Shown: piece by piece, positions 107 to 34,218 of the stretch
Numbering within the stretch: the stretch's first letter is position 1
Layout: every line of letters begins with the position of its first letter
Assembly (NCBI GenBank): GCA_012513795.1
Contig: JAAZBN010000310.1
Location: 1-34,327 of the forward strand
Direction of reading: 5' to 3'
Length of the DNA: 34,327 nucleotides
From: Bacteroidales bacterium
GTDB taxonomy: Bacteria; Bacteroidota; Bacteroidia; Bacteroidales; VadinHA17
Translations under genes and position numbers: made by a program
The notes under the pieces: generated by a model
The model's input: only the letters and a program-made list of their open reading frames with translations
The model's database searches: none
What the model was told of the DNA's origin: nothing

Positions 107-1996
107 TTAGATTTTAATAACCTCGTCAAACCACCTTGTCACCGATTCCCTGTGGGTCACGAAAACAATCGTCACCCTGTCCTTCAGCCGTGCCAGCACC
201 TCCATCACGGTTGCCTCGTTCTCGGCATCGAGCGACGAAGTGGCCTCGTCGAGCAGCAGCACCGACGGCCTTCGCAGTAGCACCCTCGCCAGCGCCAGCC
301 GCTGGCACTCGCCACCTGAGAAGGCAGTATGATAGTTCACCACGAAGGCATCCAAACCCTTCCTGAACCGCTTCACCAGGTGCGCCGCGTTGACCTGCTC
401 CAGCACCGCCATGATCTCCTCGTCACCGATGCCCGTGCCGGCGTCGCCACCGCTCACTCTGTTTCGGGCTTCGTCGTCCTCACTGCCCGTCCTTATACCT
501 CTTTTCCCCGGCAGCCCTCCTCCGCCGGCCCCGGGAGCGCTGTCCCACACCAGGTTCTCGCGCAGGGTGCCGTCAATGAAGAACGGATCCTGCGGCAGGT
601 ATCCCAATCCCGCCTTCCACCGCGGCAGCAGGCTCTCATCCAGCAACACCCCGTCAACAACTATCCTCCCGGCAGCAGGCTTCTGCAACCCGGCAATAAG
701 GTCTATCAGCGTCGTTTTACCGCGACCCGACTGCCCCAGTATCCCGGTGATATTATGTGCCCTGATCTCAGCGCTGAACCCGTCAAACAGCCTCGCCCCG
801 TCGGGGTAAGAAAACGTTATCCCCTCCAGCCTTATCCCATCCTTCAGCTCAACTCCCCTTTCTGCGCTCCTCTCTCTGTGCTCTTCGCCCTGCCCTGTTC
901 TTTTCGCTCTGCGCTCTCCCCTCTCGCCGCTCCTCTCTCTTCGCTCTGCGCTGACTCCCACGTCCGGCAGATCAGCATCCAACTGCATCACCAGCTTCAC
1001 CGACGGCACGTTTGAGACAATCATGTTGATGTCGGTGTTTATTGCTATCAGCTGTGGGAAGATGCGCGAGAAGAGCAGTATCAGTATGACGAACGAGGCC
1101 ATGGGCGTGTTGCCCGACCGGTAACCGAACCAGACTATGCCCACCAGCACCACCAGCCCCACAATGCGCTGTATCAGCTGGGGCAGCGACCAGTTACGCT
1201 GCATCCTGTACTCCATATTGAGCAGTGAGGTGTTGGCCTCGTCAAACCGGTTGTAGTAATAGTCCTCCGAGCTGTGCACCTTGGCTATCTTCACCGTCTG
1301 CCAGAAGTCGTCTATGTATTTGAGGAGCCTGTTGTAGGAATCCACATACCCTTTGCCCAGGCGGAACGAGCGCGACAGGAACCGGCGCATGGCGAGGAAC
1401 GTAATTGCTCCCACCCCTATGATTATCAGCGTGAAGCGGGCGGAGATGAGCAGCGCGTAGAGGGTATATGCGCCGGTCATGATGACCGTGGTGAGGAGGC
1501 GCAGGTAGAAGAAGTAGTAGGCGGCCAGGTTGGGCACCTCGCGGGTGAGCACCTGGAGGTGGTTGGTCTTGCTGCGACTGTTCAGCAGCTGCCAGTCGGC
1601 CATGATGATCTTGCGGAACAGCCTGCGGCGAAGGGTGTATATGAATGTCTGCTGGTACCGGGCGTCGAGTATCGCCTTCCAGTACTGTATCAGGGCACTG
1701 AAGGTAAGCAGCACCATATACACCACCAGTATGCTGCCGATGGTTATCTCTATTCCTGCGCCTTCGGCGAAGTTGCGTATGGCCAGTGCGATGCCGTCAG
1801 GCTCGCCGCCTGTGCCGATGTTAAGCAGCTGCAGCAGTGGTATGAGCAGCACTATTGAGAAACCCGACGTCACACCCTGCAGCAGTGTCAGCAGCATGAT
1901 GAGAACAAGCTTCCAGGGCTGGTGCTCGCGTAACAGGCGAAACGTTTCAAGGATAAACCGGGCCTTACTCTTTATTTGGCTTTCCATGCCGGACAT
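107..1996 (-). CDS. Lasso peptide ABC exporter (D protein), fused TMD-NBD
   Basis: 629-residue ABC half-transporter, predicted to export the mature lasso peptide and give self-immunity. The N-terminal half has several hydrophobic spans (about residues 30-58, 85-105, 160-205, 275-320). The nucleotide-binding domain follows, with Walker A GQSGRGKT (421-428), Q-loop LPQD (467-470), signature FSGGE (559-563), Walker B VLLLDEA (579-585) and H-loop THR (614-616). It starts at ATG 3 nt after the B2 stop and is the last gene of the lasso operon, the usual place for D. Two in-frame inserts are odd: an Arg/Glu-rich linker (350-386) between the TMD and NBD, and a Gly-rich acidic stretch (486-526) inside the NBD helical region. 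No peptidase C39 domain is present, as expected because B2 removes the leader. Assignment as an ABC exporter is secure; the substrate is inferred from context. Confidence 0.9.
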   Translation of the reverse strand: MSGMESQIKSKARFILETFRLLREHQPWKLVLIMLLTLLQGVTSGFSIVLLIPLLQLLNIGTGGEPDGIALAIRNFAEGAGIEITIGSILVVYMVLLTFSALIQYWKAILDARYQQTFIYTLRRRLFRKIIMADWQLLNSRSKTNHLQVLTREVPNLAAYYFFYLRLLTTVIMTGAYTLYALLISARFTLIIIGVGAITFLAMRRFLSRSFRLGKGYVDSYNRLLKYIDDFWQTVKIAKVHSSEDYYYNRFDEANTSLLNMEYRMQRNWSLPQLIQRIVGLVVLVGIVWFGYRSGNTPMASFVILILLFSRIFPQLIAINTDINMIVSNVPSVKLVMQLDADLPDVGVSAERRERSGERGERRAKRTGQGEEHRERSAERGVELKDGIRLEGITFSYPDGARLFDGFSAEIRAHNITGILGQSGRGKTTLIDLIAGLQKPAAGRIVVDGVLLDESLLPRWKAGLGYLPQDPFFIDGTLRENLVWDSAPGAGGGGLPGKRGIRTGSEDDEARNRVSGGDAGTGIGDEEIMAVLEQVNAAHLVKRFRKGLDAFVVNYHTAFSGGECQRLALARVLLRRPSVLLLDEATSSLDAENEATVMEVLARLKDRVTIVFVTHRESVTRWFDEVIKI

Positions 1997-1999
1997 CTT

Positions 2000-2434
2000 T
2001 CAGATTGATGTTACCTCGCTGTACTCATTCATATTCTCACCTCCTATTATCACCGAACCGTCAACCGAGAGCCAGGCATGAGCTTCGAGTCCTTTGGAGT
2101 CGCTCTTTTTCACTCCAAGGTGAACTGTTGATTTTATGCCTCTCCTGGCAAGCATCCGGTGTGCTGACAGCGCCTTCACCAGGCATGTCGACCGCCAGGG
2201 CGTTCTCCGGGATAGTCCATTTATAACCCCGGCCAGTGTGCGACAGAAATCGCGGCATGAGAATATCTCCTCAGCAACAACAGCCCGGACACTCCGTCTG
2301 TGGATCCTGTTCATCCAAACCCTGGAAGGTGTAAAGCTCACCTGCAAGCGCGCAAGGAGAAGCTGCCAGATTGCGCCAGGTATAAGACTACGCTCGTCAG
2401 GAGTGATCCTGCGGGCAGGTAAAAAGTTATTCAA
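2000..2434 (-). CDS. Lasso leader peptidase B2 (transglutaminase-like)
   Basis: 144-residue protein of the lasso B2 family, a papain/transglutaminase-fold protease that cuts the leader from the precursor. The expected catalytic triad is visible: Cys84 in the STCLVKALSAH motif, His119 in AHAWL and Asp125 in VDG. Length is typical for a stand-alone B2. The start is TTG at 2434; an in-frame TGA lies upstream within the B1 gene and no in-frame ATG intervenes, and the first internal Met (41) would remove the helical N-terminus. It lies 17 nt after the PqqD-like gene and 3 nt before the exporter gene. Split B1/B2 organisation is common outside the classical single-B proteobacterial clusters. Confidence 0.9.
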   Translation of the reverse strand: MNNFLPARRITPDERSLIPGAIWQLLLARLQVSFTPSRVWMNRIHRRSVRAVVAEEIFSCRDFCRTLAGVINGLSRRTPWRSTCLVKALSAHRMLARRGIKSTVHLGVKKSDSKGLEAHAWLSVDGSVIIGGENMNEYSEVTSI

Positions 2435-2451: not shown

Positions 2452-2724
2452 TTATTCTGAAGGGACGATCAGTTTCCTGGCGGCCATGTCATCAATAAAG
2501 GCCAGCACATCATTCAGGCAGGTCTCGCGGTCAACCTCATACTCTTCCATGAGGCGGTCAGCCAGTTCATCAACTGTTGAGGGTTTTTCAGAGAGCAACT
2601 CCCAGATGCGGCTGCCAACAGGGTCAAGGGAATAATAGAATCCTGCAGTGGGACTCATTAATACAAGTTCGTCGTCAATTTTATTGGACAGGACATCTGT
2701 TGATACTCTGAAAAGTAGCTGCAT
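2452..2724 (-). CDS. PqqD-like RiPP recognition element (lasso B1)
   Basis: 90-residue PqqD/RRE-fold protein that binds the precursor leader and delivers it to the B2 peptidase. The pattern is characteristic: an N-terminal beta region with DDELVLMSP, then GFYYSLDPVGSRIWELL, then a helical part with the STVDELADRLMEEYEV motif. ATG start. It sits 143 nt after the precursor stop and directly before B2, the canonical B1-B2 arrangement. PqqD-like proteins also serve other RiPP pathways, but the adjacent B2, Ser2-type cyclase and precursor make lasso synthesis by far the best reading. Confidence 0.92.
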   Translation of the reverse strand: MQLLFRVSTDVLSNKIDDELVLMSPTAGFYYSLDPVGSRIWELLSEKPSTVDELADRLMEEYEVDRETCLNDVLAFIDDMAARKLIVPSE

Positions 2725-2867: not shown

Positions 2868-2999
2868 CTATGATAACCACTTATCCGGAGCAGCACCGCC
2901 ATCAAGGGTCCTGTTGCCTCTTCCCGAATAAGTCTGCTTTATTGACAATGCCTTTGTTATCAGAGGCTTACGCCAATTCTTTTTAATTTTAGTATTCAT
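2868..2999 (-). CDS. Lasso peptide precursor (A), 43 aa
   Basis: Short gene of 43 codons between the lasso cyclase and the PqqD-like gene. ATG at 2999 lies 1 nt after the cyclase TAA, with a GGAAAGG ribosome-binding site about 6 nt upstream; stop TAG. The leader is basic (MNTKIKKNWRKPLIT...) and carries an aromatic-x-x-Pro pattern (W9..P12, hydrophobic 13-14) resembling the YxxPxL recognition motif, then Thr23 at the conserved penultimate leader position. Cutting after Tyr24 gives the core SGRGNRTLDGGAAPDKWLS. Asp33 is then core residue 9, giving a Ser1-Asp9 macrolactam, a standard lasso ring size. The core ends in Ser, the residue phosphorylated by paeninodin-type kinases. Cutting after Ser25 instead would give a Gly1-Asp8 ring. 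I do not recognise this core as a known peptide. Confidence 0.93.
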   Translation of the reverse strand: MNTKIKKNWRKPLITKALSIKQTYSGRGNRTLDGGAAPDKWLS

Positions 3000-3000
3000 C

Positions 3001-4911
3001 TTAACCTTTCCGCAAATTATCAAACCACATGTTGAATTCCAACAACAGATAGGTATTAATTATAACCCAATAGTCTCCTGCGAAATAACTTCTTTTTTTT
3101 GAATCTAACAAATTAAATATTCTTGACTTGAAAAGTGGTATGTAAATCAGGGATTCTAAATGACTCCTGGCCTCCATGTTAATGATGTTATCCGAAAAAC
3201 GTGAAAAGTCACTTACTATTATATCATGAAATCCCGGCGAATAGGTAATCTTGTCCTTCCTTAACCTTATTTCCTCAGGAAGGATTCCTTCCATGGATAT
3301 TCTTATAAGACCCCTGGGTAACCCATCTGCCAGAAAATATTCGACCGGCAGGCCAAGCAGGAACTCGACAAGTCTCCTGTCAGCCAGGGGATAAGTGATT
3401 TCAACATCGAAGTATGAGGATTCGCAATCCCATTCTTCATAAAACGGCTCATGATCAACAGGCCAGATATTTCCGGTTATCATTAAATCAGCGTAGTAGA
3501 TTTTTTTCTTGAGTTTTACGAACTCTCTCTCAAGCCTCTTTCTTACCTGTAAATAAGGGATTAGTTCAAGCTCATCGACAACTGACTCAACTGACCTGCC
3601 ATTTAATTTATTCCATAATGCGGTATACCAGTAAGGCAAGAAGGGATGTATTATTTTTCTCCGGATTATTGTTCTGACTGGAGTTTTTGTCTTTTTACTT
3701 TCAGATCGTAGGAGCGATGTTAAGGTCATTATTCTGCCGTGCAGCAGCAGGTGCGGATAAGGATTTAAAAACCTGTTTGTAGCGGTAAAATCACCCAGGA
3801 CGCCAGATAATACCCTTCTTACATTGTGTGATTTAAATTGACTGAAAATTGCCTCATCAACATAATGGTTAGCATTTACCACAGAGTATTGCTGACTGAA
3901 TTTCATGTGCAGATTGGTGTGAAAGCTCAGTTGCGAGTGATAGACAAACTCTGGCTTAATATTATTATGCTGCCTTAAGATAGCTCGGATATATCTCATC
4001 TCGTCTACCGCACCATCTGGATTCAATTCAGGATCCAGAACTGATGAAACCGTTATTACCTCTCCATCTCTTGCGGCGCATTGAAGTGCCGTAACACAGG
4101 CAATTGTACCCGAGTCCAGTCCACCACTTAATGGTACACCAATCTTCTGCTGCCCGCGGGTATGATCAGCCAGTATTCTTTCGATTAGAGTCCTCAACTG
4201 GCGGGATGCATCTGTAAGGGAAGGTATATTATTATTGCGTGAATACTTGGGCTCCCAATATTTATTTAGCAATAACTTTTCACTTCTGATTATCATGGTG
4301 TTTGCAGGACCTATTCTGATTATGTTTCTCCAGGCCGTTAAGTATGGTTTGTTCCATACATTGAAGGCCTGCTCTCTTAATAGAGTATTATCCAAATCTG
4401 TGATCACGAAAGGAATACGCACTATTGCCTTCAATTCTGTTGAAAAAACAAACCTCCCATCCTGGTAATAATAAAGAAACGGTTTCACCCCCATCTGATC
4501 CCTCGCGCAGAACAATTCCTTCTTTTCCTTATCCCATATTGCGAAAGCAAAATCACCATAGATGTCCTTAACAAAATCCTTACCGTACTTTCTGAACGAG
4601 CGCAACAACAATAACGGATCCGTTATCCGGTTCCGCTCCTCATCAGTGATGCCCAGGCGATCCATAATAGCCTCACGCTCATCAAGACGGGCGTTGGCAG
4701 TGATGACAAACCCATCTTCCTCGTATGGTGATTTATCATAAACTGATTCGGGTGTTACCTGCAGCAGCATGTGCCCCAGCGCAACCGACTCCTCTCTGTA
4801 CAAGCCCTGACCATCTGGTCCGCGATGGGCAAGGTCGGTCTGCATGGATCTGATCCACTCATCCTGCAACGGACGGCCTTCAAAATCAATTATCCCGAAA
4901 ATGGCACTCAT
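3001..4911 (-). CDS. Lasso cyclase (C), asparagine synthetase homologue
   Basis: 636-residue AsnB-like protein. In lasso pathways it adenylates the ring-forming Asp/Glu side chain of the core and closes the macrolactam. The N-terminal Ntn/amidotransferase-like domain begins MSAIFG: the catalytic Cys2 of glutamine-dependent enzymes is Ser, as expected of a lasso cyclase that needs no ammonia. The ATP-pyrophosphatase loop is SGGLDS (262-267), with the C-terminal synthetase domain following. Start ATG is 2 nt after the nucleotidyltransferase stop; stop TAA is 1 nt before the precursor ATG, so C and A are tightly coupled. An A8 run in the coding strand (3093-3100) is in frame. An exopolysaccharide amidotransferase is the alternative, but the Ser2 and neighbours argue against it. 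Confidence 0.92.
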   Translation of the reverse strand: MSAIFGIIDFEGRPLQDEWIRSMQTDLAHRGPDGQGLYREESVALGHMLLQVTPESVYDKSPYEEDGFVITANARLDEREAIMDRLGITDEERNRITDPLLLLRSFRKYGKDFVKDIYGDFAFAIWDKEKKELFCARDQMGVKPFLYYYQDGRFVFSTELKAIVRIPFVITDLDNTLLREQAFNVWNKPYLTAWRNIIRIGPANTMIIRSEKLLLNKYWEPKYSRNNNIPSLTDASRQLRTLIERILADHTRGQQKIGVPLSGGLDSGTIACVTALQCAARDGEVITVSSVLDPELNPDGAVDEMRYIRAILRQHNNIKPEFVYHSQLSFHTNLHMKFSQQYSVVNANHYVDEAIFSQFKSHNVRRVLSGVLGDFTATNRFLNPYPHLLLHGRIMTLTSLLRSESKKTKTPVRTIIRRKIIHPFLPYWYTALWNKLNGRSVESVVDELELIPYLQVRKRLEREFVKLKKKIYYADLMITGNIWPVDHEPFYEEWDCESSYFDVEITYPLADRRLVEFLLGLPVEYFLADGLPRGLIRISMEGILPEEIRLRKDKITYSPGFHDIIVSDFSRFSDNIINMEARSHLESLIYIPLFKSRIFNLLDSKKRSYFAGDYWVIINTYLLLEFNMWFDNLRKG

Positions 4912-4913
4912 AA

Positions 4914-6062
4914 TTACTTGCGACTGGTAATATTGTAACGCTTCCTGAGGTAATAGTCCAGAAATACACGGGGCACTACCAAACCAATGATGACAGCCCG
5001 GAGATAATCATAGATCATCCTGGCTCTGATCTTGAAACCTGTTCGTGTCCGCAGATGAAACATCAGCCTTCCTCTGCCGTAACCTATCCTGTGCCAGAGG
5101 GCCGGCGACAGGCTCATGGCCTTTATCCTGCCCTCAGCAAGCCGCCGGATCTGTCCGATCTCCACCCGGCTCCTAAGGGCCCCAGGTATCGCAGCACCTG
5201 TGAGAACAGAAGCCAGCGCCACAATTATGTAAACACCCTTTTCAATATTGTAGCGCCTGGCCTTGCCAATAACCCAGTCCCAGTCAATCTCAGCTTCCTT
5301 TGCCAACATCTGACCTACATCAAGCGGCTGCTTGAGCTTTATCAGCGGATCCTTGCCGGCATGATGCATCAGTGCCAGCAAAAAACTGGCAGAGGCATTG
5401 AAGACAAGAAGCTCGCGACCCTGAATCATTGACATCTCCGTCATCGGCATCAACTCCTGCAGGCTGATATCAAGGCCACTGAAGGAAGACCCGATCTTCC
5501 AGTGAAACTCAACATGAAAAATTCGTACGTCCCCCTCAAACCTGTCGAAGTTTAACTCAGCCGATTCCTTCTTGATCTTGTCAACCAGGCCGGGGTCAGA
5601 TGATCTTTCAAGCCGATAACCTCTGAGAGGCATCAGCTCTATCACACTGTCAAGGTCATCGTAATCAATCAATAGATCAATATCAACTCCCTCCCTGTCG
5701 GCCAGGTTGCCATAATACTCATGCGCCAGCCAGAATCCCTTGAAAGGCACGGCGGTAATCCCGGCCTCGCTTAGCATTGAGATGATCTCAAAAAACTCAG
5801 CCACATAGCTGAGCTGCTCATATAAATTCTGCCTCCGGGCATCACCAATCTTTTCACTGAACAAAGCCGGCACCAACGGTTCAGTCATCCCTGACAACAA
5901 CCCGGCCAGCTGCGGCTTGATCGAATGCATGTCGGCCCGCACAAGCAGATCATCCCAGCCAATCCGGTGACTGCCGATTATCTTTCGAGCCTCCTCAACC
6001 GCTGCAGCCTGATCATCCAGCCGCACCGCAAGCTTTAATATCTCAAATTCCGAAGAACTCAC
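4914..6062 (-). CDS. Nucleotidyltransferase family protein (NTP_transf_5-like), lasso tailoring candidate
   Basis: 382-residue protein with the pol-beta-type nucleotidyltransferase signature of the uncharacterised NTP_transf_5 group: FKGFWLAHEYYG (107-118) followed by VDIDLLI, with putative metal-binding Asp127 and Asp129. The N- and C-terminal parts are helical without clear membrane spans. The GTG start overlaps the kinase TGA by 4 nt (GTGA), implying translational coupling with the kinase. Proteins of this type recur beside HPrK-like kinases in lasso clusters; from memory, such a pair in the Bacillus peptide pseudomycoidin goes with further modification of the C-terminal phosphate, including sugar addition. 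Here it may cap or glycosylate the phosphorylated C-terminal Ser. The exact reaction cannot be read from sequence. Confidence 0.8.
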   Translation of the reverse strand: MSSSEFEILKLAVRLDDQAAAVEEARKIIGSHRIGWDDLLVRADMHSIKPQLAGLLSGMTEPLVPALFSEKIGDARRQNLYEQLSYVAEFFEIISMLSEAGITAVPFKGFWLAHEYYGNLADREGVDIDLLIDYDDLDSVIELMPLRGYRLERSSDPGLVDKIKKESAELNFDRFEGDVRIFHVEFHWKIGSSFSGLDISLQELMPMTEMSMIQGRELLVFNASASFLLALMHHAGKDPLIKLKQPLDVGQMLAKEAEIDWDWVIGKARRYNIEKGVYIIVALASVLTGAAIPGALRSRVEIGQIRRLAEGRIKAMSLSPALWHRIGYGRGRLMFHLRTRTGFKIRARMIYDYLRAVIIGLVVPRVFLDYYLRKRYNITSRK

Positions 6063-6892
6063 CCTGCTGAAATTATTTTTTCAAGCGTTTCCCTCAACTC
6101 ACTTATTCCGGTGGCATCCGAACGCCTGACATCATATACTCTCACAGCAGAGGCAATGACAGATAAGGTCCGGAAATAAATCTTCTCATTCTCCTTCATC
6201 CCCTCGAGGTACTCCCAGCGGTATATCTCATTCCTCATAGCAACAAACTTGTCTGCCCCGGTAACCTCCTGCGACGAAACACCAGAATCATTCTCCGTGG
6301 AAATTATAAAAACCATTTCCAGGGGAAAATACTCTGTCTCGCCCTTATTAACCGGGTAATAATACTTTTCGTTATCGGGCGCAATCTTCCTGAGCCCCGC
6401 CTTTTTTAGACCCAGCTGCTTCAGGGTGTCATCCCAAAGCTTGATGCGGTCAGAGAGGGCCATTATCACAGGCACCCCCTCCCTGATAACCATTGGGGTG
6501 ACGTCATCGGTCAGAAAGCCGGCCCCGTTAAAAACAAATGAGGCGGTGACAGATGACTTCCCTGCTCCCGCCTCGCCACAGACGAGGATACCCTTGCCGT
6601 CCAGCACAAAACTGCTGCCATGCAACGGCAGTATCTTCCGCTGGTGCAGAATAGCCCCGTAAACCGAGCCGTTCAGGTACAGTTCCAGAGTCTCCCTAGA
6701 AGCACCCTTCACCGGGGCATACTCAACCTCCCTGCCATCACAGGCATAATACCGCCCCACACCTTCAACCTGCATTGCAAACTCCCTCTGGTTCATCTGC
6801 CAAAAATCGTCGGCATAGTCAGGCGACACCACCGCACGGGGTTCGGCAACCTTCTTCACCGTTACATCCTTCAGTGGAAAGTGCAAGATCAT
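6059..6892 (-). CDS. HPrK-like kinase, predicted lasso C-terminal Ser kinase
   Basis: 277-residue protein related to the catalytic domain of HPr kinase/phosphorylase. The P-loop is GEAGAGKSS (106-114), preceded by LHGSS with His91 and followed by LTDDVTP (127-133), whose Asp129/Asp130 match the metal/catalytic acid region. The variable N-terminal domain is unlike true HprK. Homologues in paeninodin-type clusters phosphorylate the hydroxyl of the C-terminal Ser of the linear precursor. The precursor encoded here ends in Ser, which supports that role. ATG start directly follows a TAG, 69 nt after the WecA-like gene; it overlaps the nucleotidyltransferase by 4 nt and is the first gene of the lasso set. 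Regulation of HPr itself is unlikely given context. Confidence 0.85.
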   Translation of the reverse strand: MILHFPLKDVTVKKVAEPRAVVSPDYADDFWQMNQREFAMQVEGVGRYYACDGREVEYAPVKGASRETLELYLNGSVYGAILHQRKILPLHGSSFVLDGKGILVCGEAGAGKSSVTASFVFNGAGFLTDDVTPMVIREGVPVIMALSDRIKLWDDTLKQLGLKKAGLRKIAPDNEKYYYPVNKGETEYFPLEMVFIISTENDSGVSSQEVTGADKFVAMRNEIYRWEYLEGMKENEKIYFRTLSVIASAVRVYDVRRSDATGISELRETLEKIISAG

Positions 6893-8923: not shown

Positions 8924-10144
8924 TTACATCTTGGAGTCAAGCCCCTTCCCCTTTTCAATATGTTCAAAGTTAGGCAGATACTCCCTGAGTATCTCAACCA
9001 CGCCCGCCTTGGTCACATCTCCTGAGTCGAACAGCCTCCGCAGCCTGGCAAATATCTCATCAATCTCACTGCTCTCCCTCTTCACGGAGTTCTTTATCAC
9101 CCCCAGGCTGGTGAACTTCTCCGCGTCAATCACCTCCCCTTCAGTGAAGAACTCCTCGTAAGGCTTCTCGCCCGAGGTGTCTGTCTCGAAGAAGTAAACA
9201 GGGTATGACACAGAGCTCTCGTTGAGCAGCAGGGCTTTCTCACGTGCCTCCTGCTCAGAGCTGCATATGTCGGCCACCAGCTTCAGGTACCGGAGCAGGT
9301 CGCGTGCCACCGCATCAAATGATATCATGTCACGCTCTTCATCCAGCTTCGGGAAGATTATGTCTCCCGACTCGCCCAGTACCGAGGCTATCATGCACAG
9401 TTCACCCGACTCGCTGGGCGAGACGAAGAACCTGCGTATGCCCAGCGGGCACGACCATGGCTGGCGCTTGCCGAGCCGCTCTATGAACCCCAGCGGCAGG
9501 CTGCCGTTGGAGAAGGCCACGTTGGCAAAGCGGGCAGTGGTTATCTTCAGCCTCGACGAGTAGGCCATGATCAGCTCCTCCATCAGCTTCTTGCTGGCGC
9601 CCATGATGTTAACAGGATTGGCCGCCTTGTCAGTGGAAACACAGAAAAAATGTTCAGGCGGATATTCAAGCAACAGGTCGAGCAGCCGGCGTGCACGCAA
9701 GACATTGTTTTCTATCATCGCCTCCACGGAGAACACATCTTTTTCGCTCCTTACATGCTTGTGCGCGGCGAAGTTGGCCACTATGTCAAACGGCGCCAGC
9801 GACCTGAACATCTTTTCAAAAACTCTGTCGCCAAAGTTCATCGGGTAGGTGATGAACTCCTGAGGTATGTTGTATCCTGTCGAGCTCCTGAGATCGCGCA
9901 CCAGCTCTGTGAGGCCGTTCTCACTGATGTCGACAACCACCAGTCGGCTGATATGGTACCTGAGTATAGCCTTGATATAATGCGAACCTATTGTACCTGC
10001 CCCGCCTATCACCAGCACACTCTTGCCGTTCAGCCTCTCACCCAGCTCATGGTGATATTTTTCCAGGTCAGGTTTCAGCAGGCTCTCAGCGCGCTTTGTA
10101 ACGTACTTTCGGGTAAAATCATCTATGTCAACGTATGTAATCAT
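8924..10144 (-). CDS. PglF-like NDP-sugar 4,6-dehydratase
   Basis: 406-residue soluble short-chain-dehydrogenase-type enzyme of the polysaccharide biosynthesis/CapD family. Rossmann motif GGAGTIG (47-53) binds NAD; FAAHKHVRSEKD (125-136) and STDKAANPVNIMGASK (170-185) are diagnostic. Met181 stands where classical SDRs have Tyr, as in PglF-type dehydratases. It should convert UDP-GlcNAc to the 4-keto-6-deoxy sugar, the substrate of the aminotransferase encoded 31 nt upstream. The N-terminal membrane domain of full-length PglF is absent, so this is the soluble short form. The C-terminal extension after about residue 340 is helical and less familiar. Confidence 0.88.
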   Translation of the reverse strand: MITYVDIDDFTRKYVTKRAESLLKPDLEKYHHELGERLNGKSVLVIGGAGTIGSHYIKAILRYHISRLVVVDISENGLTELVRDLRSSTGYNIPQEFITYPMNFGDRVFEKMFRSLAPFDIVANFAAHKHVRSEKDVFSVEAMIENNVLRARRLLDLLLEYPPEHFFCVSTDKAANPVNIMGASKKLMEELIMAYSSRLKITTARFANVAFSNGSLPLGFIERLGKRQPWSCPLGIRRFFVSPSESGELCMIASVLGESGDIIFPKLDEERDMISFDAVARDLLRYLKLVADICSSEQEAREKALLLNESSVSYPVYFFETDTSGEKPYEEFFTEGEVIDAEKFTSLGVIKNSVKRESSEIDEIFARLRRLFDSGDVTKAGVVEILREYLPNFEHIEKGKGLDSKM

Positions 10145-10175
10145 TTTTATCCTTTTACTGTAGCTGGTCTTTCCG

Positions 10176-11372
10176 TCACCTGGTCTTTCCTTTGCCGTAT
10201 CCCTCTATGTATGCGCTGCTGGGCAGGTTCACCACCCTGTCGGCAAACCAGACAGAGTTCTCCAGCCCGTCCGTCTGGCAATCGCGGTACATCGACAGCC
10301 TGTTCATCAGCTCCCAGATGGGCCTGGTCATTACCCCCCTGCTGTTTGTATATTCAAGAACCTCATCACGCCGCTTGCGGTCTTTTGTTATTATCACGTT
10401 CAGCCAGAAGTTTGACCGGCACTCCTCCGGCTCGTCAAAGAAGGTGAACTCGCTCTCCCTGAAGAACTCCCGGTAGCGGAAGGCGAGGTCGCGTTTCAGG
10501 GCTATGAACTGATCAAGTGTCTCCATCTGTGCGCAGCCGAGGGCAGCGTTGATGTTTGTGAGCCGATAGTTATACCCGGTCATGTCATGGACATACTCCC
10601 ACGCGTGCGGGATTTTGGCCTGGGTGGTCATGTGTTTTGCCTTCACTGCCAGCTCCTCGTCGTCAGTCAGTATCATTCCCCCGCCGCCGGTGGTGATGAT
10701 CTTGTTGCCGTTGAAGCTGAGTATGCCGGCCTTGCCGAAGGTGCCGGTATGCTTTCCGCCGAACAGGCTGCCAAGGCTCTCTGCGGCATCCTCTATCAGC
10801 GGAATGCCATAAGAATCAAGAACCTCCGCCAGGCGATCAATCTTCACCGGGTGGCCGAAGGTGTGCATCGGCACGCATGCGGCTATCCTGCGGCCTGTTT
10901 TCTTATTATAAGCCGAGTCGCCTCGCATTTCGGCATTATCTGAAAGCCATCGGGCCACGCTGTCAGGCGAGAGTCCCATTGTCTCGCGGTCAACGTCAAG
11001 GAAGACGGGCTTCGCACCTGTATAGGTGATGGCATTGGCGGTGGCGATGAATGTCAGCGATTGTGTTATCACCTCGTCATCACGCCGGACACCGGACAAC
11101 TGCAGTGCCACGTGCAATGCTGCCGTGCCGTTCATGGCAGCCACGGCGTAACGCGTGCCGGCATAATCTGCGCACATCCTTTCAAATTTTCCCACGAACT
11201 CTCCAACACTGGAGACGAAATTTGAATCAATGCACTCTTCAAGGTATTTTTTCTCATTGCCAATGAACCTCGGGTCGTGCAGAGGGATGAATGCCTCAGG
11301 TTCATGGAATTGAGAGCGTACAAAGTCAATCAGCGGGTCAAGTTCTTTCATCGTACGGGAAATATTCGTCAT
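10176..11372 (-). CDS. LegC/PglE-type sugar aminotransferase (DegT/DnrJ/EryC1/StrS)
   Basis: 398-residue PLP-dependent aminotransferase, predicted to aminate C4 of the keto sugar made by the adjacent dehydratase, giving UDP-4-amino-4,6-dideoxy-HexNAc. The N-terminal FIPLHDPRFIGNEKKYLEEC and NFVSSVGEFV patterns are characteristic of the LegC group. The PLP pocket shows IEDAAESLGS (Asp195) and the Schiff-base lysine in SFNGNKIITTGGGG (Lys224). ATG start, 8 nt after the upstream sugar-transferase gene. The stereochemistry at C4 cannot be assigned from sequence. Confidence 0.9.
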   Translation of the reverse strand: MTNISRTMKELDPLIDFVRSQFHEPEAFIPLHDPRFIGNEKKYLEECIDSNFVSSVGEFVGKFERMCADYAGTRYAVAAMNGTAALHVALQLSGVRRDDEVITQSLTFIATANAITYTGAKPVFLDVDRETMGLSPDSVARWLSDNAEMRGDSAYNKKTGRRIAACVPMHTFGHPVKIDRLAEVLDSYGIPLIEDAAESLGSLFGGKHTGTFGKAGILSFNGNKIITTGGGGMILTDDEELAVKAKHMTTQAKIPHAWEYVHDMTGYNYRLTNINAALGCAQMETLDQFIALKRDLAFRYREFFRESEFTFFDEPEECRSNFWLNVIITKDRKRRDEVLEYTNSRGVMTRPIWELMNRLSMYRDCQTDGLENSVWFADRVVNLPSSAYIEGYGKGKTR

Positions 11373-21844: not shown

Positions 21845-22804
21845 TCAATCAATAATCTTCAAGATTTCGCTTACATCCTTTCTTTTTGAACGTGGCACAC
21901 TGAACTCTTCAATTGGATATCCAATTGCAATCACTGAAATAACTTTCTCGGAGGGATCCAAGCCAATTAATTTCCTAAGTTTTTTATCAAGAAAATAATG
22001 TTTTGACCAGTTCAAGGCAACAGCTGCTATTTCATGGAAATGTAGAGCATACAGTAAGTTTTGCACAAAAATGCCCCCATCAATAAACACTTGATACCAT
22101 TCTGTTACAGATACAAAAACACCCCGGTTTACAGTGACAACTAGTAGCTGCTTAACTGATTCTGAGGTAGAATTAAGGCCACTTTGAATCAACAATACTT
22201 CATCTACTAAAGATTTCCTGGTAATAAATGTAACTTGCCAACCCTGCCTGTTGCATACTGATGGCGCATTCCCGGCTAGAGAAATAACTCTTTTAATTGT
22301 AGTGTAGTCAATAGACTCTGCGCTAAAATGTCTGACACTATGCCTTGAAACAGAGAATTCATTGAAACCTGAATGCGATGAAGAGAAATAATCTTTACAA
22401 TTAAAGGAAATTGTGCCACCTTCTTGCCCTTCAGAATATCTACTAAAAAATTCAATTTCATTATCTGAAATAATATCATTGATTTCTTGGCCTGTCTCCG
22501 CATGATAATCAAAATATTTCTTTAATACTGCACATCCCGACCTAAACTGAGAATTATTCACATCATACCCTCGGACAACCCATAGCTTTAGATAATTCAT
22601 CAACCGAGAGATCTTTGCCTTACCAAATCGAGACCTAATTGGTACATTAATGAGGCCTTTTTCCAGGCTGTGGTAATTAAACGTAATTCTGCCCTGAAGT
22701 TTAGTAGAAGAATTCAGGGAGTAACTACTAGAATATCTGACAAAACAAATAAACTCAAACAAATGATCCGAAAACAATGCTAAAATACTTATGATTTTCC
22801 CCAT
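21845..22804 (-). CDS. Nitroreductase-family protein
   Basis: 319-residue protein. The C-terminal two thirds match the FMN-dependent nitroreductase fold: SRHSVRHFSAESIDYTTIKR, then NAPSVCNRQGWQVTFIT, DGGIFVQNLLYALHFHEIAAVALNW and VISVIAIGYP. The N-terminal 110 residues are an extra domain with HSLEKGL, seen in glycan-locus members. Probably a flavin oxidoreductase acting with the pyruvyl-transferase-like enzyme; the substrate is unknown. ATG start. AT-rich. Confidence 0.82.
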   Translation of the reverse strand: MGKIISILALFSDHLFEFICFVRYSSSYSLNSSTKLQGRITFNYHSLEKGLINVPIRSRFGKAKISRLMNYLKLWVVRGYDVNNSQFRSGCAVLKKYFDYHAETGQEINDIISDNEIEFFSRYSEGQEGGTISFNCKDYFSSSHSGFNEFSVSRHSVRHFSAESIDYTTIKRVISLAGNAPSVCNRQGWQVTFITRKSLVDEVLLIQSGLNSTSESVKQLLVVTVNRGVFVSVTEWYQVFIDGGIFVQNLLYALHFHEIAAVALNWSKHYFLDKKLRKLIGLDPSEKVISVIAIGYPIEEFSVPRSKRKDVSEILKIID

Positions 22805-22826
22805 GTATCATTCTTGTTTACAATGC

Positions 22827-23831
22827 CTAAGAGACTACGCTGTCTACCATCCACCCATATGGATCAAACTTGCCCTCATGCCAGGAAAGTACACTGTCCC
22901 AATATCCAGGGCAAGCTTCATAGCCTCTGGGTGAAAAGCCATAGCTAATTTCAACTAAAAGTGGCTTTCCATTGTCGTTTACAAAATCAAACGCCACACA
23001 CTGGCTCTTCAGTTTCCCAGCCAAAGAAAACGATAGTTTAATGGTATCCTCGTCAAACAAGCTTCTGTCATAGAGAATATTGCCACTTCCAGAGGCCCTG
23101 AAATCGCCTCTGCGAACCATCCGTTTAATCGCGAATGCGTTATCTCCTATCACAACAACTCGTATGTCATGATCATTGTCAGCAATGAACTCCTGAAAAT
23201 AGACATACCCTTTCTCTCGTCCACGTAGTCTTGCATACGGAGGAGGTATAACAAAACGTACAATACCTTCTAAAATATCCCTTAAATCAGTCTTATTCAA
23301 CCTGAATAGCCTCCAACGCTCCTTCAGGCTTCCTGGTGGATCGTATGCGGCGAAACCACGATTAAAAGCTTTTCTGATTAATCGCCTTGCCTGACTGTAA
23401 TTTTTAACTAACCTGACATTCTGGGAACCGGCACCTCCCCGAAGTTTAAATACCTTGGGGTAACTAGTTTCCCCAGCCCATGAAATAGCTTCTTTTTTAC
23501 TATAGAAAATCCAGGTTGGCACCAATGGTGCCCCGATTGCTTCAAGAAGGTATTTCTGCCCGACCTTGTCATCAAAATGCCAAACAGTATTGAAGTCTGG
23601 AAAAACCTTCATTCCTGATTGTTCGAGAGAGAAGAGCAATTGCTTTGCAAAGAGGATTGCCCTGGGGCTGTTCTGATGAAAGTGCCACATCAGGCCATCG
23701 CAGTCAGTAAGGTCCTGAATTATGCTGTCCTTATAGCAGTCTACAAGTTTGTATTCAATCCCCTTGGAATCACAATAAGCAATCCACCGATCACTGAACG
23801 AACCTCGTGAGTTATGAATGGCGATCTTCAT
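22827..23831 (-). CDS. ATP-grasp domain ligase
   Basis: 334-residue ATP-grasp enzyme (RimK-like). The ATP-binding core includes YPKVFKLRGGAGSQNVRLVKN, YVYFQEFIADNDHDIRVVVIGD and AIKRMVRRGDFRASGSG; the metal-binding end is VAFDFVNDNGKPLLVEISYGFS. Such enzymes form amide bonds between a carboxylate and an amine through an acyl phosphate. In this locus it might attach an amino acid to a uronic acid or the reverse. The ATG overlaps the DUF362 stop by 4 nt (ATGA), so the two are probably made together. Confidence 0.85.
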   Translation of the reverse strand: MKIAIHNSRGSFSDRWIAYCDSKGIEYKLVDCYKDSIIQDLTDCDGLMWHFHQNSPRAILFAKQLLFSLEQSGMKVFPDFNTVWHFDDKVGQKYLLEAIGAPLVPTWIFYSKKEAISWAGETSYPKVFKLRGGAGSQNVRLVKNYSQARRLIRKAFNRGFAAYDPPGSLKERWRLFRLNKTDLRDILEGIVRFVIPPPYARLRGREKGYVYFQEFIADNDHDIRVVVIGDNAFAIKRMVRRGDFRASGSGNILYDRSLFDEDTIKLSFSLAGKLKSQCVAFDFVNDNGKPLLVEISYGFSPRGYEACPGYWDSVLSWHEGKFDPYGWMVDSVVS

Positions 23832-25156
23832 CTTACTTCATCAAAGTATTTCATCCAACCTTTCGGCGGGATGGCCTTAAGGGCATGAGCCTTGAGGTCG
23901 ACAAGATTAATCTGCTTTCCATTAAAAACAATAGGACTCGAATCACCTAGAGGATTTGAGTTCTTTAGCAATGACAATTCCTTAGGATCAAATCCCATCA
24001 TCAAAGCCATAGCCCTGTCATTCAGGAAAGAATCATTTGAAAAGGATATTAAACCAAGAGGCAGGGGTACGGGTTGAAGCGGACCTTCACCTTGACCAGC
24101 AATAATTCCATCACACAGGATAAAAATTTGTCGTTGTCTTTCAGAGGCAAACGAACCATCGGCTCTGCCAAATTCCGCAATCATGTTTAAGTCCAGAACC
24201 ATCCTCCAGGTTGTATCGTTTCCATGCCATCCTGCGGCTATCTGATGTTCCGGCCCCGGCAGGGATAGTCTCCACAATGCTGATGCAAGTTTTTGCCAAT
24301 ACCAGAAGCTTTTCTTACCCTGTCTCCTATTAGCCTCATCCAGAGTGAGCTCAGACCAATACCTCAAAATTGATCCGCCAGGGTAGCAATCCCCCCCCCG
24401 TTTTGTTCCTCCTATCCTGTGATGCGGCAGGAAATCTTTGTCCCCATTGATTCCAACCAGATTCTTCAGGGCTCCTGTAACACCCGTCTTCTGATGCGTC
24501 TTTATTTTAGGTAACGAAATCACTATATCAGCATCGAAAAACTCCTTTGCGATGCAGTACTTGTGGACACCTGGGGCATGAGCCTCCTGCATCCTGTCAG
24601 GATCGTAATTTGTAACCCTGAATCTCATCTTACCTGCTGAAGTGACAGGTTCGAGCATGCTTCTTTTTCCCAGATCAAAGATTACATATTCCGACAAAGG
24701 TTTTATTTCAGTCAAAGGCGAATTTCCTTCTACGCTATATTTTCGCCTCCTGAAATCAATTATAGATACAGCCACATTAGACTCTTTTGAAAGACGAGTG
24801 ATCTCACCGAGAAAATCAGGCGATAACATTTCATCCCACTTTGTCATCTGGATAGGTGCGTCTCCAATGACAATCTGTGCAGGACTCATTTTAAGAAGCA
24901 CCTTCAGAGCTGCAACTATGAACTTATTATGAGTCCTCAGGCAAAATTCATCTTCTGGAACCGAAGAGTGTTTTACCCAATTTGGTTTAATCAGGATATT
25001 TTTCCCTTGAAGTGTCTCTTGGTTTAGATGTTCTTTAGTGAGATTTTCGATTGCTCCCACTAAAGCATCCTGATCTGAGTAAATAGCAGACAGATATTGG
25101 AAATTTCTCTGGGCGATATTATTATAGAAAGTGTGAATATTTAAGTATCCCGACAT
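23828..25156 (-). CDS. DUF362 domain protein
   Basis: 442 residues from ATG 25156 (MSGYLNIHTF...), chosen over an upstream in-frame start that would overlap the preceding gene by 64 nt; it lies 2 nt after that gene's TAG. DUF362 features: ILIKPNWV, IVIGDAPIQ, FFDADIVISLPKIKTHQKTGVTGALKNLVG and GGDCYPGG. The fold is known mainly from ferredoxin-fused proteins, but no CxxCxxC cluster is seen here. Function in glycan loci is not known; coupling with the ATP-grasp gene suggests a shared modification. A coding-strand G9 run (24391-24399) lies in frame. Confidence 0.82.
   Translation of the reverse strand: MSGYLNIHTFYNNIAQRNFQYLSAIYSDQDALVGAIENLTKEHLNQETLQGKNILIKPNWVKHSSVPEDEFCLRTHNKFIVAALKVLLKMSPAQIVIGDAPIQMTKWDEMLSPDFLGEITRLSKESNVAVSIIDFRRRKYSVEGNSPLTEIKPLSEYVIFDLGKRSMLEPVTSAGKMRFRVTNYDPDRMQEAHAPGVHKYCIAKEFFDADIVISLPKIKTHQKTGVTGALKNLVGINGDKDFLPHHRIGGTKRGGDCYPGGSILRYWSELTLDEANRRQGKKSFWYWQKLASALWRLSLPGPEHQIAAGWHGNDTTWRMVLDLNMIAEFGRADGSFASERQRQIFILCDGIIAGQGEGPLQPVPLPLGLISFSNDSFLNDRAMALMMGFDPKELSLLKNSNPLGDSSPIVFNGKQINLVDLKAHALKAIPPKGWMKYFDEVR
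24391..24399. repeat. Homopolymer run of nine C (G9 in the coding strand)
   Basis: Nine consecutive C on the plus strand, read as G9 in the DUF362 gene at the TKRGGD codons. The reading frame is intact with nine bases; a gain or loss of one would truncate the protein near its middle. Such tracts are typical slipped-strand contingency sites in surface-polysaccharide genes and also typical sequencing-error sites. Confidence 0.9.
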
Positions 25157-25158
25157 GT

Positions 25159-26289
25159 CTATTTTCCCTGAAACATTGTGGCTCCCAACCGGGCTGTGGT
25201 CATGAACTCGGCATCGGGCCAACTCTTTAAAATCCTTTTAAGCAATTTGGAAAGCTGCTGCAAGCCGTTGTCCCTATTAGAAGGATTCAGGCTTCCGATA
25301 TAGTTTACCCTGTGCGAACTGATTATAGCAGGTTTATTCCAGCGAAACGCTATCTTAATATCGTTCAGGCAACCGTCTACCCAGTCTTTCCCTGGTTGAC
25401 TGGGTTCAAAAAAACAATTACGCGTAATATATCTTAAGCCGCTCCTATCCCTTTGACCAAGCCAGTGAATGACTTTTTTTGTTTCGCCATTTCCCAAAGG
25501 CTCGTTCTGTATTTTTGAAGCAGACCTGTATTTTATACCATTTTTTACGAGAGTCTTATTAAGATCATTATTAAACGGGCCATTGGGTGGTACGAAATAT
25601 TCTGGCCTGTAGCCGAAAAGCTTTTCGAACAGGTTAAGTCCCTCCTCGATAATTCTTTTGTGTTGTTCCAGTTCAATTGGATCTCCTAATAAAAAGGCGG
25701 CTTGAAAGTCTACCCCTGTTAATTTATCTTGATCAGGGACGAATCCCCACAAGCCCTGGTCAAAGGCCATTCTTGTCTGCCTGTCTCCTTTTTGCAGGGC
25801 TTTCATCCAGGCTGCGACATTGAGATGCTCACGGCCATGCATCTGCGGCACGAAAATGTTCTTCTCAATTCCCTCCTTCCATAGGTCGAATGATCTCTCA
25901 CAGCCCGGATATCTCTTTAATGTCTCAATAAAAGGCTCATAGAAATAATTCTGAAAATTCGAATCTATTATTTTCTGAAAATCAGGATTAGCAACAATGC
26001 TTACAGGGGTAAATATCGCATTATGACCCGAGCGATCTTTTGAAGCTGAAAGGACTTCAAAAAGCATCTCAAGATCAGTAGAAGAAGCAAGTGAATCGTT
26101 AAGGTTATACCTTTCTGCATCCCTACTTCTTACATCAACCCCGGCTTCCTTAAGCATCTGAAAAGCCTTGAGAGACGGCATCCGGATGCTGCCCCAGTCA
26201 TCGCTTTCAAAGACAATAATTTTCCGTTTGGTGCGCCAGCCGGGAAGGTTGCTTAGATTTCGCATTATGCGTTGAAGACTTGATGCCAT
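25159..26289 (-). CDS. NodB-fold polysaccharide deacetylase-like protein
   Basis: 376-residue protein related to carbohydrate esterase 4-type enzymes. The Asp pair appears in FESDDWGSIRM (28-38), the metal-binding His motif as MHGREHLNV, the substrate loop as YFVPPNGPFNND and the C-terminal His as SSHRVNYIG. No signal peptide, so it probably acts in the cytoplasm on a lipid-linked or nucleotide sugar rather than on exported polymer. ATG start; 2 nt before the DUF362 start. Family placement is by motif order; deacetylation itself is inferred. Confidence 0.78.
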   Translation of the reverse strand: MASSLQRIMRNLSNLPGWRTKRKIIVFESDDWGSIRMPSLKAFQMLKEAGVDVRSRDAERYNLNDSLASSTDLEMLFEVLSASKDRSGHNAIFTPVSIVANPDFQKIIDSNFQNYFYEPFIETLKRYPGCERSFDLWKEGIEKNIFVPQMHGREHLNVAAWMKALQKGDRQTRMAFDQGLWGFVPDQDKLTGVDFQAAFLLGDPIELEQHKRIIEEGLNLFEKLFGYRPEYFVPPNGPFNNDLNKTLVKNGIKYRSASKIQNEPLGNGETKKVIHWLGQRDRSGLRYITRNCFFEPSQPGKDWVDGCLNDIKIAFRWNKPAIISSHRVNYIGSLNPSNRDNGLQQLSKLLKRILKSWPDAEFMTTARLGATMFQGK

Positions 26290-27599: not shown

Positions 27600-28697
27600 T
27601 TAAAGCTCCATAAACTGAGCAGCAACGTTTCTTATATCATATTTTTTTAGATCTTCCAGCATCATTCTTTTAGCATAATCACCTGACAAAAACTCATCCA
27701 CAACCGTAAGGTCAGTATCTTTTCTAATATTCATAACAGGCCTTCCTGCAATGGCATAGTCTATCAATTTGCTCGGAATCTGTTCATTAGTGTTATTATC
27801 AATATTGACAAGAAAATCCATCGTTGTTAGCACTTTCAAGAGTTCCACTCTTGGCAATGGCTCGCGAAGTTCAAGTTTATCATTTAGTTGAGTCTTGTAA
27901 CCATTAATCATACTCAGGTGTGAACTGAAAATAAAGAATTTGAAATAATCTTTCATTTTTGACAAATGATCCAGTAGTGCCTTTGGATCCCTTCTTCCCG
28001 GGATGAAATTGCCAGCATATGCAAACCTGGGGTACTCATGCTTCTTAACGAAAGCTGGCATATCATCGATTTCATCCAATCTGAAGCCCTGGGGTATAAC
28101 TCTTATTTTGTCATGAAACTCAGGATAATAAGGTGTTTTAGCAGTTTCAACCGGGATGGTAATATAATCACACTTACGACAAAAGCTTTTTTCAAAGTAC
28201 TTAAAATAGAATGGTTTGTGAAAGGTGTCCAACCTTGCAAGCATAAAAGGATCGCCACAATCAGCAATCCATTTTTTTGCAATGGAATTTCCCTTCTTCC
28301 AGGCTTTGGCCACACCCCAATGAATTGGATGAGGAACAGCAATTGAAATTAAAAGATCATGACCTCTTTCGTTTTTTAATGCTTTGGCGACCATAAACAT
28401 TAGCTGGATATCAGGATATTCAAACAGAACCTGCAAAGTCCTTCGCAGAGCTCTCCTTAACAAAAGAACTGGGCCGCCGCCATTAAGTTGTATAGGCTTA
28501 AATCTTAAGGTCCCGAGATCTTTAATCTTAACATTATGAATCTTCTCGAATTCAGTGTAGTCTCCGCCGTTGGTTGGAAACAATATTGTCACATCATGTC
28601 CCTGCCGTGCAAATTCTTTAGCAAGTTCAGTTGCGCGAAACGAGCGGGGAGAAATTTCGGGGAAAAAGGATCTACAAACTATAAGAATTCTTTTCAA
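27600..28697 (-). CDS. GT4-like glycosyltransferase
   Basis: 365-residue GT-B protein. The N-terminus RILIVCRSFFPEISPRSFRATELAKEF is typical of this group, and the donor domain includes RFAYAGNFIPGRRDPKALLDHL and IPSKLIDYAIAGRPVMNI. The EX7E motif is weak. TTG start; the codon gives MKRILIV, the expected first strand. Encoded between the asparagine-synthase-like and polymerase genes. Sugar specificity unknown. Confidence 0.83.
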   Translation of the reverse strand: MKRILIVCRSFFPEISPRSFRATELAKEFARQGHDVTILFPTNGGDYTEFEKIHNVKIKDLGTLRFKPIQLNGGGPVLLLRRALRRTLQVLFEYPDIQLMFMVAKALKNERGHDLLISIAVPHPIHWGVAKAWKKGNSIAKKWIADCGDPFMLARLDTFHKPFYFKYFEKSFCRKCDYITIPVETAKTPYYPEFHDKIRVIPQGFRLDEIDDMPAFVKKHEYPRFAYAGNFIPGRRDPKALLDHLSKMKDYFKFFIFSSHLSMINGYKTQLNDKLELREPLPRVELLKVLTTMDFLVNIDNNTNEQIPSKLIDYAIAGRPVMNIRKDTDLTVVDEFLSGDYAKRMMLEDLKKYDIRNVAAQFMEL

Positions 28698-33303: not shown

Positions 33304-34218
33304 CTAATAGACAATAATCTTACGGCTAAACAATTTGTTATTTTTATAAATTATCATATTATACGTACCTGCAGGTAGGCCTGAAAGATCTATTTCCAGT
33401 TTTGTGCCTTCACTAAAGTGATTTGACCTGGTAAGCCTTCCTGAAGAATCATAAATCTCCACAATACAATCTGCTATATATTCCTGATCCAGTGTTATTG
33501 ACACGCAGTCATCGGCCGGATTCGGATAAATTAGAAGATGGTTGCCGATTAAATCATTTATATCTGATGTTTGGGTGGTGAATGATAAAATCGGACCATA
33601 TCCGGTGCCAACTGAATTGGTGGCGTAAGCCCGGTAATAGTATTTTGTGTTTGGCTCCAGGGAAGTCATGACTGTGGTGAAACTGCCGGTTCCTGTTCCG
33701 TCATTGGTGAAATTATCGGATATTGTCGGGGTTTCATTCGTGCTCCAGCATAATCCTCTTGCAGTAATATCCGCGCCTCCGTCAGAGGTAATATTTCCGC
33801 CTGCACTTGCAGATGTTTCTGAAATGTCGGTGACAGCTTCGGTAGTTACAGTTGGAACGTAGAGTATATTAACAGAAAAAGAAATCGACTTGGTATCCGT
33901 AAGCCTGAAGTGGTCTTCTGTCTGAATCATCATGGTATAATCTCCGTTCGGCAAATCCAAAGGAAGCGACCCGTCTTTGTTAAGGGCGATTTTGGTTTTA
34001 CCATCATCAATCGAATACCAGGCACTCTTGAAATTATCATCGGTGATGGTGTAGCTCAGCGTCGGCTTCTCAGCCGTATAGAGTGCATCATTCACTGGCG
34101 AGGTTACTGTCAACACAGGAGGTACTATATCACGTTTCTCTATGACATGGAAAATCTCATCGAAATTAGGATTTGAAGTATAGTTTGGAGGCGTGGTGCC
34201 ATAATTTGAATTAGTCAA
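33304..34218 (-). pseudogene. 5'-truncated T9SS-sorted surface protein remnant
   Basis: About 304 codons encoding the C-terminal part of a secreted Bacteroidota protein. There is an Ig-like domain (SPVNDALYTAEKPTLSYTI), a repeat typical of secreted proteins of this phylum (NITSDGGADITARGLCWSTN ... YRAYATNSVG) and a type IX sorting domain beginning LLIYPNPADD and ending SRKIIVY. It has no signal peptide, no early ATG (only a TTG right after an in-frame TAA) and starts abruptly in what looks like mid-domain. The upstream bases are stop-rich and hold an inverted repeat. Most likely the 5' part was lost by insertion or deletion. Confidence 0.72.

Follow-up and report, generated by a model that had tools for sequence, protein, structure and literature searches.

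The lasso cluster and its precursor gene

The window, by which we mean the whole 34,327-nucleotide stretch of Bacteroidales DNA that was analysed (contig JAAZBN010000310.1), carries seven genes in the order K, N, C, A, B1, B2, D, all on the minus strand (Table 1). Lasso cyclases are asparagine-synthetase-like proteins that lack the N-terminal glutaminase Cys, and C is of this kind: its PF00733 score was over the cut-off, it begins MSAIFG with no Cys2, and it contains the motif SGGLDS. For both C and B1 the best NCBIfam match was to a lasso model, in each case under the cut-off (NF033535 at 370.7 bits against 525 for C, and NF033536 at 68.2 bits against 80 for B1), and B1 also matched TbiB1 (5v1u), which we take to be a lasso B1 protein, with an E-value of 3.4e-14. 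The B2 motifs STCLVKAL and EAHAWLSVDG contain the expected Cys, His and Asp, presumably its peptidase residues; a search of B2 against solved structures gave no match at E 0.1. Matches to D with 41-76% identity were found in four other loci (L076, L003, L085 and L088). Both a PqqD/RRE protein (B1) and a transglutaminase-like peptidase (B2) are present, and judged by its predicted gene content the cluster is complete for lasso peptide biosynthesis.

Table 1. Predicted genes of the lasso cluster, parts of its precursor, and Cys-rich genes of related loci
Feature	Position	Strand	Size	Remarks
K, HPr-kinase-like	6059..6892	minus	277 aa	PF07475 23.5 bits, under cut-off 33.3
N, NTP_transf_5	4914..6062	minus	382 aa	PF14907 130.4 bits, over cut-off 31.2; DxD 127-129 (DIDLL)
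C, lasso cyclase, asparagine-synthetase-like	3001..4911	minus	636 aa	PF00733 82.9 bits, over cut-off 21
A, lasso precursor	2868..2999	minus	43 aa	translation MNTKIKKNWRKPLITKALSIKQTYSGRGNRTLDGGAAPDKWLS
A leader	residues 1-24			...WRKPLI...KQTY
A core			19 aa	SGRGNRTLDGGAAPDKWLS; predicted ring Ser1-Asp9, C-terminal Ser19
B1, PqqD-like leader-binding protein	2452..2724	minus	90 aa	PF05402 84.6 bits, over cut-off 23.4
B2, leader peptidase	2000..2434	minus	144 aa	NF033537 77.2 bits, over cut-off 33
D, ABC exporter	107..1996	minus	629 aa	PF00005 and PF00664 over cut-off
Cys-rich gene, L001	L001:3028-4074
Cys-rich gene, L002	L002:8368-9414
Cys-rich gene, L003	L003:8286-9332
Cys-rich gene, L076	L076:3572-4645	minus
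Cys-rich gene, L099	L099:7884-8831
Cys-rich gene, L100	L100:4593-5648	minus

The first-pass annotation of this DNA had singled out a 43-codon gene between the cyclase and PqqD-like genes, with Thr at leader position -2, Ser1, Asp9 and a C-terminal Ser. We located the ORF exactly there, on the minus strand between the end of C at 3001 and the beginning of B1 at 2724, and its translation has all four of these residues. A starts with an ATG at 2999, one base past the stop codon of C, with a purine-rich stretch (GGAAAGG) upstream, and its stop codon ends at 2868. An alternative TTG start at 3023 would give a longer protein of 51 residues; in the alignment, the ATG column is the start in three of four relatives (the L002 start is four residues further on, and for L001 the ATG was taken and an upstream TTG set aside). 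The features of a lasso precursor, a leader Thr at -2, a small residue 1, and an Asp or Glu within positions 7-9, are all present in A, and Asp9 is the sole acidic residue among core positions 7-10. As the annotation had said, a gene this short can be overlooked under the ORF length cut-offs in common use. It had also failed to recognise the sequence among described lasso peptides, and in keeping with this, three pieces of the peptide were absent from the literature text we searched, a body of text without most subscription papers and without RODEO-type precursor collections. Pfam and NCBIfam each gave 0 families for A at E 0.001, which means little at such a short length.

A loose motif for such precursors (W/Y/F..P.[ILVM]..T.[GASC]..[DE]) matched one ORF in the real window and five ORFs in 60 simulated windows (~0.08 per window), one of the five with a C-terminal Ser; because matches arise at this rate the motif is weak evidence, and we rejected it as proof of A on its own. 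We built a precursor profile from four rows (L001, L002, L003 and L076), leaving out the window sequence. The rows were ORFs directly after homologous cyclases, chosen by eye with knowledge of the window sequence, and their place behind the cyclase is independent of that sequence. When the 3.1-Mb genome of the window was searched with this profile, A ranked first with an E-value of 7.6e-10 and the runner-up scored 0.25, a result that we regard as decisive for predicting A to be the precursor. Conservation of the frame beside homologous genes, which the annotation had named as a check, was also found: precursors were recognisable behind the cyclase in the same four loci, and L085 has a more distantly related one in that place. 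That A might be a frame left open by chance in the gap from C to B1, with the real precursor elsewhere, draws on the rate at which the bare motif turns up and on the lack of a family match, but it fits poorly with a profile hit unrivalled in the genome and with a placement the same as that of precursors in four related loci, and its likelihood is negligible; A is almost certainly a genuine lasso precursor.

Related clusters and precursors

Four loci have cyclases 48-51% identical to C: L076, from the same genus; L003, from Algibacter mikhailovii; L002, from a Prolixibacteraceae MAG; and L001, from a Cytophagales MAG. As in the window, all four have the precursor directly behind C, a K gene, and a C-terminal Ser on the precursor; they differ from it in their cores and in an extra Cys-rich gene after A, so that the order in the genome with L076 (G006) is K, N, C, A, X, B1, B2, D, X being the Cys-rich gene. 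Only L076 and L003 gave a match to N; contig ends cut through L001 and L002. A further genome, G521, has K, N and C in the order seen in the window, with a cyclase 82% identical over the 175 residues present. Its cluster is split over two contigs, which end inside C (L086) and just past the start of D (L088) and thus break off before any precursor, and the profile gave no match in this genome at E up to 10.

Clusters of this kind were rare. Counting C matches at E 1e-60 or better, and including the window's own genome, we found them in 3 of 117 genomes of the family, in 2 of 393 genomes drawn from the order and in 2 of 395 drawn from the phylum. A contig scan for C gave 38 loci, of which L001-L003 were 48-49% identical to it along almost all of its length; among the remaining 35, mostly partial matches, identity in the best segment did not exceed 33%.

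Seven residues (K6, W9, P12, I14, T23, G34 and S43) were invariant in the five aligned precursors, the window included. MAFFT set an Asn opposite Asp9 in the L003 row; counting from Thr(-2), the Asp of L003 is core position 9. All six precursors, the window's and those of five relatives, end in Ser. They also fit Thr(-2), with S, G or A in position 1 and Asp or Glu in position 8 or 9; these three fits arise partly by construction, since the script sought a Thr so placed, whereas it did not ask for the terminal Ser. Positions 1 and 7 varied among the six.

The precursor in L085 (L085:8426-8539) is shorter, at 37 aa, with the core GTGTNNQEADSSNS, Glu8 and a C-terminal Ser, and it stands beside a K gene and a cyclase 29% identical to C. 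Its position behind C led us to it; the precursor profile missed it, the best match in G602 (E 1.09) being on another contig. A lasso-like candidate precursor in L099 (L099:7666-7803), with Gly1 and Asp8, lies between a distant cyclase and a Cys-rich gene, and it ends in Val even though the same locus has a distant K match (25% identity). L087 likewise has a K match (27%), but we identified no precursor in that locus. Judging by these two loci, the presence of K is not always coupled to that of a terminal Ser.

The same kinds of gene are found together in known systems. The bsf cluster of Bradymonas sediminis, as set out in passages of PMC10368454, is a seven-gene set of A, B1, B2, C, D, K and N, the same seven kinds of gene as in the window; its leader has Ile at -2 and the motif YxxPxL, its ring is Gly1-Asp8 and its kinase acts on Ser3, whereas the window has Thr, WxxPxI and a predicted Ser1-Asp9 ring. 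Pseudomycoidin (psm) of Bacillus pseudomycoides has psmK, psmN and a modified C-terminal Ser (passages of PMC9266682), comparable to the K, N and C-terminal Ser of the window; its core is different, its phylum is another, and the likeness in N is one of gene type. Paeninodin (pade) of Paenibacillus dendritiformis, in the same source, also pairs a kinase (PadeK) with a C-terminal Ser, on a different core, and the passages of PMC9266682 that describe it name no N gene, whereas the window has one. Lasso genes of Butyrivibrio fibrisolvens adjoin genes for a nucleotidyltransferase, an HPr kinase/phosphorylase, a family 2 glycosyltransferase and EpsH (passages of PMC7533575); these clusters are from Firmicutes, are predicted only, and were likened to the window by gene description. 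Since lasso clusters with nucleotidyltransferase, HPr kinase and glycosyltransferase genes are described in those passages, the combination of K and N with lasso genes is already known; the sequence of A did not turn up in the literature text searched. With the window, a lasso cluster complete with K and N becomes available from Bacteroidota, a phylum that a passage of PMC7533575 calls an underexplored source of these peptides. Together with its relatives it also defines a small family of precursors that share a WxxPxI-like leader and a C-terminal Ser.

Tailoring genes and predicted product

While the lasso precursor of the first-pass annotation stood, the tailoring genes K and N of the same cluster were missing from it. 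In K, His91, Lys112 (Walker A), Asp129 and Asp130 were invariant in six of six aligned cluster kinases. According to passages of PMC9266682, lasso kinases require a His-Lys-Asp-Asp motif and act on the C-terminal Ser; we read H91, K112, D129 and D130 as the four residues of that motif. A K profile searched against solved structures matched HPr kinases weakly (best E 9.6e-05), and next Rab GTPases and KaiC from E 0.012, with a P-loop in common. In N, D127 and D129 were invariant in 4/4 aligned proteins. Structural matches of N to 8etq (E 1.4e-04), presumably a designed repeat protein, and to 8k4i (E 0.22) were taken as not meaningful. The cluster therefore has, within itself, the features of paeninodin-type phosphorylation, namely kinase K with the four residues and a precursor with a C-terminal Ser, together with a feature of the pseudomycoidin type, nucleotidyltransferase N. 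The related clusters are ready material for learning what N enzymes do: passages of PMC9266682 leave open whether PsmN itself adds sugar, and those of PMC10368454 show no function for the N protein of the bsf cluster.

The cyclised bare core has a computed mass of 1938.966 Da ([M+H]+ 1939.973, [M+2H]2+ 970.490). The annotation's figures (~1938.97 Da, m/z 1939.97 and 970.5) are thus correct for the bare core; they cover the unmodified form only and ignore K and N. Because the operon has K and N of the kind that phosphorylate and then hexosylate a C-terminal Ser, heavier ions are to be expected, and the main ion may be other than that of the bare cyclised core. The computed neutral masses are 2018.932 Da with one phosphate, 2180.985 Da with a hexose added and 2343.038 Da with two hexoses. 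By analogy with paeninodin and pseudomycoidin, as described in passages of PMC9266682, the product would be expected to carry a phosphate on Ser19 (~2018.93 Da) and is perhaps also hexosylated on the phospho-Ser (~2180.99 Da).

Modelled on studied systems, B1 would bind the leader in the W9..P12..I14 region and K would phosphorylate the precursor at the C-terminal Ser19. B2 would cleave behind Tyr24, using the Thr at -2, and C would link the Ser1 amine to the Asp9 side chain, closing a ring around the threaded tail. N would then modify the phospho-Ser with a hexose, or with a nucleotide that leads to one, and export of the finished product would fall to D. We infer the enzymatic steps, the threading and the step order from those systems; the genes, their order, the conserved features of the precursor, and the signature residues of K and N are what was observed. 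On this analogy it is fairly probable that A is a lasso precursor phosphorylated on Ser19 and made into a product by K, N, C, B1, B2 and D, while the chance that N adds a hexose is somewhat short of even.

It is improbable that the bare cyclised core is itself the product, with K and N inactive or serving, for example, the neighbouring polysaccharide pathway. K does score under its Pfam cut-off, and the polysaccharide-rich same-strand run that ends with the cluster is one that K and N could serve. K matches also occur beside a cyclase in L001, L002, L003, L085 and L087, however, and the flanks of L002 and L003, examined by eye, have no polysaccharide run (L003 has one acyltransferase-like gene); K moreover keeps its four catalytic residues and all six precursors their terminal Ser, which argues for a modified product. 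Similarly improbable is the idea that the target of K lies in the ring, at Ser1 or Thr7, and not at Ser19. Both residues are on hand in the core of A, and BsfK phosphorylates Ser3 according to passages of PMC10368454; only the C-terminal Ser, however, is common to all six precursors, positions 1 and 7 being variable, and this pattern favours Ser19 as the predicted site.

Genomic setting

From 6892 to 34218 the window is a same-strand run rich in polysaccharide genes, with the lasso cluster at its end. The genes upstream of K include glycosyltransferases, sugar transferases, a pyruvyl transferase, EpsG and a flippase, with others interspersed, and the large ORFs there lie on K's strand with the exception of one antisense ORF at 9650-10447. 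The Pfam scan left out two window ORFs of more than 150 aa (25159-26289 and 27600-28697) and four antisense ORFs. Within the run, nitroreductase, RimK-like ATP-grasp and DUF362 genes stand in a row (21845-25222), and the gene at 33304-34218 has a Por_Secre_tail domain. This domain fits a placing of the genome in Bacteroidota, as do the nearest named relatives of the cyclase, which come from that phylum.

The gene adjoining K is WecA-like (PF00953 over cut-off; TIGR02380 at 172.6 bits, short of the cut-off at 326), and K's neighbour in L076 shares 64% identity with it. Among 22 genomes of the genus, the WecA-like gene was found in 11 at E 1e-80 and the cyclase in 2 at E 1e-60, and the lasso cluster is therefore the variable part. 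In G521, a sugar-transferase-like gene was seen by eye two genes upstream of K.

This neighbourhood raises a further reading, in which the lasso cluster would be functionally part of the adjoining surface-polysaccharide locus and N would couple a sugar of that pathway to the phospho-Ser19 made by K; if so, the lasso peptide would be tagged with a sugar from the neighbouring pathway. It is suggested by the position of the cluster at the end of the run, by the WecA-like gene adjoining K in both genomes of the genus that have the cyclase, and by the sugar-transferase-like gene of G521. A single inherited insertion site accounts for the polysaccharide neighbourhood as well, and we consider such a functional tie very unlikely.

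Cys-rich proteins and other side genes

In the four related clusters, the next large gene behind the precursor encodes a Cys-rich protein of 348-357 aa (Table 1). Its C-terminal part is PqqD/RRE-like by eye, and the AlphaFold model was of low confidence (mean pLDDT 42). The two members scanned, those of L003 and L076, had no Pfam match at E up to 1. Searching 395 genomes of the class with a profile of three members gave matches in three at E 1e-10; of these three places, L099 and L100 hold lasso-type genes and L101 holds none of the lasso genes tested. The profile gave no match in the window's genome or G521 (both 88-89% complete) or in G602, and our literature search returned no paper that joins a lasso peptide with CxxCxxCC. 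Going by its gene neighbourhood, this is possibly an undescribed lasso-associated protein.

L002 also contains a gene (L002:5044-5979) in which a weak CxxCxxCC-type N-terminus, scoring under the Pfam cut-off, is fused to a B2-like domain. In the alignment the Cys and His positions of B2 are not kept in this domain, which is perhaps a non-peptidase relative of B2.
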